DNA of 64,000 nt from Acidithiobacillus caldus ATCC 51756 (GTDB taxonomy: Bacteria > Pseudomonadota > Gammaproteobacteria > Acidithiobacillales > Acidithiobacillaceae), in contig NZ_CP005986.1 of assembly GCF_000175575.2 (NCBI RefSeq), positions 2,118,615 through 2,182,614 of the forward strand, in the 5' to 3' direction. Positions 7,062 to 45,094 of this stretch are shown here, one piece after another. The translations under genes were made by a program, and so were the position numbers. Position 1 is the first letter of the stretch, and each line of letters starts with the position of its first letter. Under the pieces are notes generated by a model, which searched no databases, was not told where the DNA came from, and saw only the letters and a program-made list of their open reading frames with translations.

Positions 7062-7371
7062 TGGCGGAGGCGGTGAGATTCGAACTCACGAGGGGCGTGA
7101 ACCCCTGCCGGTTTTCCGTACCCACTATGGCTTTCGCCACCAACCCTTTGGGTCTTTGGAGTCTGGATCATGCCTTCACCCTAGCCCGCTGGGGCCTTAG
7201 GTGGGAACCGTCTGATCTCTACACCTTCTGGATTGCTCCAGCTTGGCTCGGCATTACCTCGGGACTATAGCCCAGGGGCTTCGCCGAATTTGATTCCTGT
7301 CACCACCATGGTTTCCCGTGGTGGGCTCGATGCCTCAAGACCGGTGCATTCAACCACTCTGCCACACCTCC
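7062..7371 (-). tRNA. tRNA-Ser(UGA), interrupted by a group I intron
   Basis: Two exons, 7337-7371 and 7062-7116, join to a 90-nt tRNA-Ser with encoded CCA. Acceptor GGAGGTG pairs with CGCCTCC (one G-T), D stem GCA/TGC, anticodon stem CCGGT/ACCGG with loop CTTGAAA (anticodon UGA), a long variable arm AGGGG/CCCCT as required for class II tRNASer, and T arm GTGAG/CTCAC around TTCGAAT. Discriminator G73 is typical of serine. The intron lies between anticodon positions 34 and 35; the 5' exon ends in U and the intron ends in G, as group I splicing needs. The tRNA decodes UCN codons and should be nonfunctional until spliced. Confidence 0.95.
7117..7336 (-). ncRNA. Group I intron, IC3 (Azoarcus-like), inside tRNA-Ser(UGA)
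   Basis: 220-nt self-splicing intron without an internal ORF. From 5' to 3' on the minus strand: P2 CCACCA/TGGTGG; P3 GGAATC/GGTTCC; the CAAATTCGGCGAA segment; GCCGAGCCAAGC; P6 TGGA-GCAA-TCCA; GAAGGTGTAGAG; P7 GATCA/TGATC; P8 CCACC/GGGTG; and P9 GTGGC-GAAA-GCCAT, ending in the terminal G. The order and spacing match my recollection of the Azoarcus tRNA-Ile intron, whose P3 is GGUGUC/GGCACC and P7 is GACUA/UAGUC, so both helices differ by compensatory changes. The 5' exon CUU pairs with intron GAG, placing a U-G wobble at the splice site. Confidence 0.93.
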
Positions 7372-45017: not shown

Positions 45018-45094
45018 TGGTGGGCCCGGCAGGATTTGAACCCGCGACCAAAGGATTATGAGTCCCCTGCTCTGACCAGCTGAGCTACAGGCCC
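45018..45094 (-). tRNA. tRNA with CAU anticodon, probably tRNA-Ile2
   Basis: 77 nt with encoded CCA. Acceptor GGGCCTG pairs with CGGGCCC (one mismatch-tolerant wobble), anticodon loop CTCATAA (CAU), T arm CGGGTTCAAATCCTG. The anticodon arm GGACTCATAATCC followed by TTTGGTCG resembles tRNA-Ile2 (lysidine-modified, reads AUA) more than elongator tRNA-Met, and E. coli ileX also sits beside rpoD. Elongator Met cannot be excluded. About 48 bases after rpoD, possibly co-transcribed. Confidence 0.9.

Follow-up and report, generated by a model that had tools for sequence, protein, structure and literature searches.

A predicted IC3 group I intron in the anticodon of tRNA-Ser(UGA) of Acidithiobacillus caldus and its relatives

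An interrupted tRNA-Ser(UGA) gene

The stretch of DNA analysed here, referred to below as the window, comprises 64,000 nucleotides of Acidithiobacillus caldus ATCC 51756. Its minus strand carries at 7371-7062 a class II tRNA-Ser(UGA) gene, in which a 220-nt insert (7336-7117) separates U34 from G35; the gene reads GGAGGTGTGGCAGAGTGGTTGAATGCACCGGTCTT, 220 nt, GAAAACCGGCAGGGGTTCACGCCCCTCGTGAGTTCGAATCTCACCGCCTCCGCCA. When fused, the exons adopt the class II fold, with a 7-base loop, CTTGAAA, and the anticodon UGA. The original prediction, that excising 220 nt between U34 and G35 leaves a perfect tRNA-Ser(UGA), proved correct in coordinates, strand, length and structure. ARAGORN agrees with it; when introns are allowed the program reports tRNA-Ser(tga) at complement 7062-7371 with a 220-nt intron. 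Run without the intron option, it calls no tRNA at 7062-7371, an omission that the intron explains. Scans of the gene's surroundings for promoters and terminators returned none on its strand. The gene is made up as follows:

7337-7371, minus strand: 5' exon of tRNA-Ser(UGA), with the acceptor 5' strand, the D arm and the 5' half of the anticodon arm up to U34 (ARAGORN; closely matches intronless relatives)
7117-7336, minus strand: predicted group I (IC3) intron, 220 nt, first base G, last base G
7062-7116, minus strand: 3' exon, with G35, A36, the rest of the anticodon arm, a long variable arm, the T arm, the acceptor 3' strand and an encoded CCA

ARAGORN places the intron at positions 37-256 of the pre-tRNA, one base downstream of 36-255; G36 equals G256, and the two cuts yield an identical tRNA product. 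Group I introns require a U at the end of the 5' exon, opposite a G of the guide, and a G at the end of the intron. We chose the cut at 36-255 (7336-7117) because with it the terminal U of the 5' exon faces the guide G, giving the 5' splice site its U.G pair, and the intron ends in G. The intron's terminal base is G in 15/15 introns of the family Acidithiobacillaceae. Compared with most intronless relatives, the 3' exon (55 nt) is 96-100% identical over its 55 nt.

A tRNA scan of the A. caldus genome found GCU, GGA (two copies) and CGA as the other serine tRNAs. The scan is incomplete, Ile(GAU) and Ala(UGC) being absent from its list; two further checks were therefore made for a second tRNA-Ser(UGA). 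BLAST of the whole pre-tRNA against the genome returned a single locus and no second match, and a genome search with the uninterrupted anticodon arm gave no match at two mismatches or fewer, the matches at three mismatches being on a par with the reversed control. To the question raised with the original prediction, whether the genome holds a second tRNA-Ser(UGA), the scan, BLAST and the anticodon-arm search all answer that none is found. The codon UCA is rare yet used: ten genes of the window contain it 6 times among 3787 codons. The only gene detected in A. caldus for a UCA-reading tRNA is very probably cut, within its anticodon, by a self-splicing RNA, and the cell would depend on splicing for growth. 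Elsewhere in the window (45018-45094), an intronless tRNA that ARAGORN labels Met(CAU) starts GGGCCTGTAGCTCAG, like tRNA-Ile2(CAU).

Fold and covariation of the intron

Judged by its sequence, the segment 7336-7117 of the tRNA-Ser(UGA) gene belongs to the IC3-type group I introns; its predicted elements are:

7324-7342, minus strand: P1, exon GG.CUU with guide GAGCC (7328-7324) and a U.G wobble at the 5' splice site (U.G in 15/15)
7301-7323, minus strand: P2 with a GAAA tetraloop (L2); GGAAAC invariant in 15 sequences
7292-7297, minus strand: P3 5' strand GGAATC, partner GGTTCC at 7209-7204 (covariation)
7283-7288, minus strand: P4 5' strand TTCGGC, partner GCCGAG at 7252-7247, P5 in between (covariation)
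7224-7246, minus strand: P6 and P6a (covariation)
7213-7217, minus strand: P7 5' strand GATCA, the guanosine-binding helix, partner TGATC at 7170-7166 (compensatory changes in other introns)
7177-7203, minus strand: P8 (covariation)
7120-7162, minus strand: P9 region with a basal stem, a small extra hairpin and the P9 hairpin with a GAAA tetraloop (L9)

The alignment of the family introns accommodates helices P1 to P9, with the core helices paired in all sequences. A full IC3 core had been claimed, and P3-P8 and P4-P6 together with P7, and their covariation, bear this out. Two elements are poorly conserved: the P2 stem as drawn pairs in only 59-63% of cells across species, and the extra P9 hairpin as drawn in 54%. 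P8 of one intron (L034) takes a tetraloop-receptor-like form, CCUAAG...UAUGG. At P9.0 a G-C pair is possible in A. caldus and three relatives; in the other family introns the base preceding the terminal G is A in place of C, and P9.0 is weak.

Within the family the core is nearly invariant, and covariation there is weak as a result. When the family introns are aligned with the tRNA-Leu introns of Azonexus and of a phage, 98.0% of cells are paired and 15 of the 32 pairs have changed on both sides, a result matched by none of 500 shuffles. An alignment of 59 introns, which was fitted to a covariance model and is thus biased towards the proposed structure, has 97.8% of cells paired and 25/32 pairs changed on both sides (0/500 shuffles). 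P7 was left out of the covariation model and its changes were read separately: GATCA/TGATC in A. caldus corresponds to GAGCA/TGCTC in Azonexus and GACTA/TAGTC in the phage intron, and P3 compensates likewise. The compensatory pairs first noted in P3 (GGAATC/GGTTCC) and P7 (GATCA/TGATC) are therefore present, and it is relative to the tRNA-Leu introns that they compensate.

The general group I model of Rfam, RF00028, gives no match to the 220-nt intron at its threshold of 50 bits. This miss is a sensitivity gap of the model. Among the controls it passes the introns of Arg(CCU) (L254) and Ile(CAU) (L311), misses the tRNA-Leu IC3 introns L165, L243 and L210, and scores L285 at just 33.9. After these controls, in which clear tRNA-Leu IC3 introns were among those missed, RF00028 was put aside as a test. 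Two such introns unreported by it lie at L165:6075-6217, in an Azonexus MAG, and in L243. Matches to RF00023 and RF00507, the former spanning the 3' exon, fell below their gathering scores and were dropped. The group I covariance search suggested at the outset thus had a mixed outcome, RF00028 failing to match and a model built from the core finding the same host elsewhere. As some IC3 introns escape the standard Rfam model, bacterial tRNA introns are probably undercounted.

Presence and probable loss among relatives

Among 29 Acidithiobacillaceae genomes, the pre-tRNA with an intron at the same base occurs in 16 (15 with a full match to the query and one cut by a contig end), and 12 hold an intact intronless tRNA-Ser(UGA); the one genome in which neither form was matched is incomplete. 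The comparison of the locus in related species, proposed with the original prediction, hence yields both occupied and empty sites. The intronless gene lies beside gatB, as in A. caldus, in seven of the 12. In the two genomes of the same genus and in genus g2 the distance from tRNA-Ser to gatB is about 0.8-0.9 kb with or without the intron, and because this proximity is kept in both states we regard these as true empty sites. Where both were located in genomes of genus g4, tRNA-Ser is far from gatB. On the gatB tree 2 changes of intron presence suffice, as compared with a mean of 9.3 when the labels are shuffled. An ancestral presence followed by two clean losses fits this result; gains would formally be possible as well.

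We propose that the intron folds within the precursor tRNA and that a guanosine binds at P7; cleavage would then follow U34, where P1 has its U.G pair, and ligation of U34 to G35 would give the mature UCA-reading tRNA-Ser. In Acidithiobacillaceae the intron may have been retained mostly by descent and lost exactly at least twice, and it would be one of the IC3 introns that reside in the anticodon loops of several bacterial tRNAs, related to those of tRNA-Leu(UAA). We are nearly certain of this reading of an IC3 intron without an open reading frame at U34|G35 that is self-spliced, kept mostly by descent and exactly lost at least twice, in which splicing and its autonomy are what we infer. Could the insert merely resemble a group I intron by chance, or be removed by another route? 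The failure of RF00028 speaks for this, yet the same model misses obvious tRNA-Leu IC3 introns, and the covariation and the empty sites contradict it; we give it scarcely any credence. The insert is not a chance feature, because 15 complete family copies lie at one site, 12 relatives are uninterrupted and the helices covary. It is improbable, if somewhat less so, that the intron is inactive or dependent on a host protein, the gene being a pseudogene or splicing being assisted. The weak P9.0 in part of the family would suit such a state, but the core is invariant across species, the exon sequences are intact, and no spare tRNA was found in the genome.

Serine among the hosts of IC3 introns

Established hosts of bacterial group I introns are tRNA-Leu(UAA), fMet, Ile(CAU) and Arg(CCU). 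We found no earlier report of a group I intron in a bacterial tRNA-Ser in the open literature; subscription journals were poorly covered, and a prior report is possible. The serine host thus appears new; the mechanism and the intron class are well known. The original prediction of a new host stands to this extent, and its list of known hosts, Leu(UAA), Ile(CAU), Arg(CCU) and fMet, turned out too narrow, since Leu(CAA), Lys(UUU), Thr(UGU) and Arg(UCU) have to be added. Nor is the host unique to A. caldus, as it recurs in other family members (16/29 in all) and in three genomes of another order.

A pattern scan of contigs was too loose, yielding 119 stretches with the rest of the core in only one (the Azonexus tRNA-Leu). 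With the core covariance model, matches were obtained in 65/369 genomes of the class (E 0.001; many matches weak or partial), in 40/398 of the phylum (1e-7) and in 60/399 of the order of G755 (1e-8). The host tRNA was read from the exons for most strong matches; it is mostly Leu(UAA), Ile(CAU) or Arg(CCU), and otherwise Leu(CAA), Lys(UUU), Thr(UGU) or Arg(UCU). The tRNA-Ser(UGA) hosts outside the family (L322, L335, L347) are all in the order of G755, which we take to be Burkholderiales. Other ARAGORN 'Ser' labels outside the family were rejected: L286, L290 and L294 are tRNA-Leu(UAA) by their D arm, and L379, L383 and L389 are actually tRNA-Ile(CAU). The host of L267, also given an ARAGORN label outside the family, is likewise Leu(UAA).

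Several further introns came to light in this survey. IC3 introns occur in Leu(CAA) (L243, L291, L326, L348, L349), and introns in Lys(UUU) (L259, L269), Thr(UGU) (L268, L358, L362) and Arg(UCU) (L270, L293, L390); in the literature examined we found no description of these four as proteobacterial IC3 hosts. Agrobacterium phage Atu_ph07 (MF403008.1) has an unannotated IC3-like intron within its tRNA-Leu(UAA) (L210:1383-1720); according to a 2014 review, the phage group I introns known at that time were all in protein genes (PMC3984707). Two tRNA-Asn(GUU)-like genes (L384, L385) have a long anticodon-loop insert with lower-scoring matches to the intron model.

Bacterial and plastid tRNA-Leu(UAA) IC3 introns share with the serine intron the loop position (U34|35), the guide GAG and the core, and over the intron four Ser introns of the family are 70-79% identical to four bacterial Leu introns (L165, L285, L245, L243). 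They differ in host and in the base 5' of the guide, a U that pairs with A35, compared with a C pairing with G35 in serine. Two P10 pairs are possible in A. caldus, between C7329 and U7330, which lie just 5' of the guide, and the 3'-exon bases G35 and A36. The base is C in 18/18 Ser introns (15/15 in the family, 3/3 in the other order) and U in the 25/25 Leu(UAA) introns scored, and the guide GAG pairs with the 5' exon CUU in both hosts alike. On this comparison, C facing G35 and U facing A35 are what P10 pairing predicts.

The A. caldus intron also appears to resemble the Azoarcus tRNA-Ile intron. Introns of this type in tRNA-Ile(CAU) are likewise small IC3 introns of about 205-220 nt with GAAA loops, one of them (L337) being 74-79% identical to the Ser introns, and differ in host tRNA and guide. 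Those of tRNA-Arg(CCU) in Agrobacterium and Bartonella share the class and a tRNA host, the Bartonella host gene also having been missed by annotation, and differ in host isoacceptor, sequence and lineage; the Bartonella intron, BbgpI, is spliced both in cells and in vitro (PMC7717549). Cyanobacterial tRNA-fMet introns are group I introns of the anticodon loop too. Some carry an open reading frame, of 150 codons in Synechocystis (PMC5733544), for which the 220-nt Ser intron, unlike the Synechocystis one, has no room. The cyanobacterial 'group I introns' of 22-49 nt (PMC5733544) were too short to serve as a comparison.

How did the intron come to lie in a serine tRNA? A single jump from tRNA-Leu(UAA), with reverse splicing into CUU|GAAA, a loop similar to the original CUU|AAAA, followed by movement between orders, is a reading compatible with self-splicing to which we give a little under an even chance. 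The loop position and the GAG guide are shared, with the base before the guide differing (U to C); a first core tree makes the Ser introns sister to a Leu(UAA)/Leu(CAA) group (96.4/96), and the other order's Ser introns share 74-81% identity with the family's. The Ser introns of the family form a clade (99.4/99). Against a single jump, a larger tree of a 133-nt core splits the Ser introns of the two orders and puts them near the Ile introns, away from the Leu group, although it rejects neither one origin (AU p = 0.11) nor two. The same separation favours independent insertions into tRNA-Ser(UGA), one per order, and IC3 introns have clearly entered several tRNAs; but the guide ATCGAGC is common to both Ser sets, whose identity to each other is moderately above that to most Leu introns. 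Separate insertions are in our estimate a serious possibility, short of an even one. Taking the single jump from tRNA-Leu(UAA) further, we suggest only tentatively, with the odds somewhat against it, that IC3 introns are a mobile family that changes its tRNA host through one P10 base, and that the serine lineage crossed orders after one such jump.

How IC3 introns switch target could be tested directly through the P10 base, in which the introns of Leu and Ser hosts differ. Close relatives that at one locus either have or lack the intron provide a natural system in which the cost, loss and spread of an intron can be followed. With the intron described here, serine would join the ribozyme-dependent tRNAs, in this case in an acidophile.
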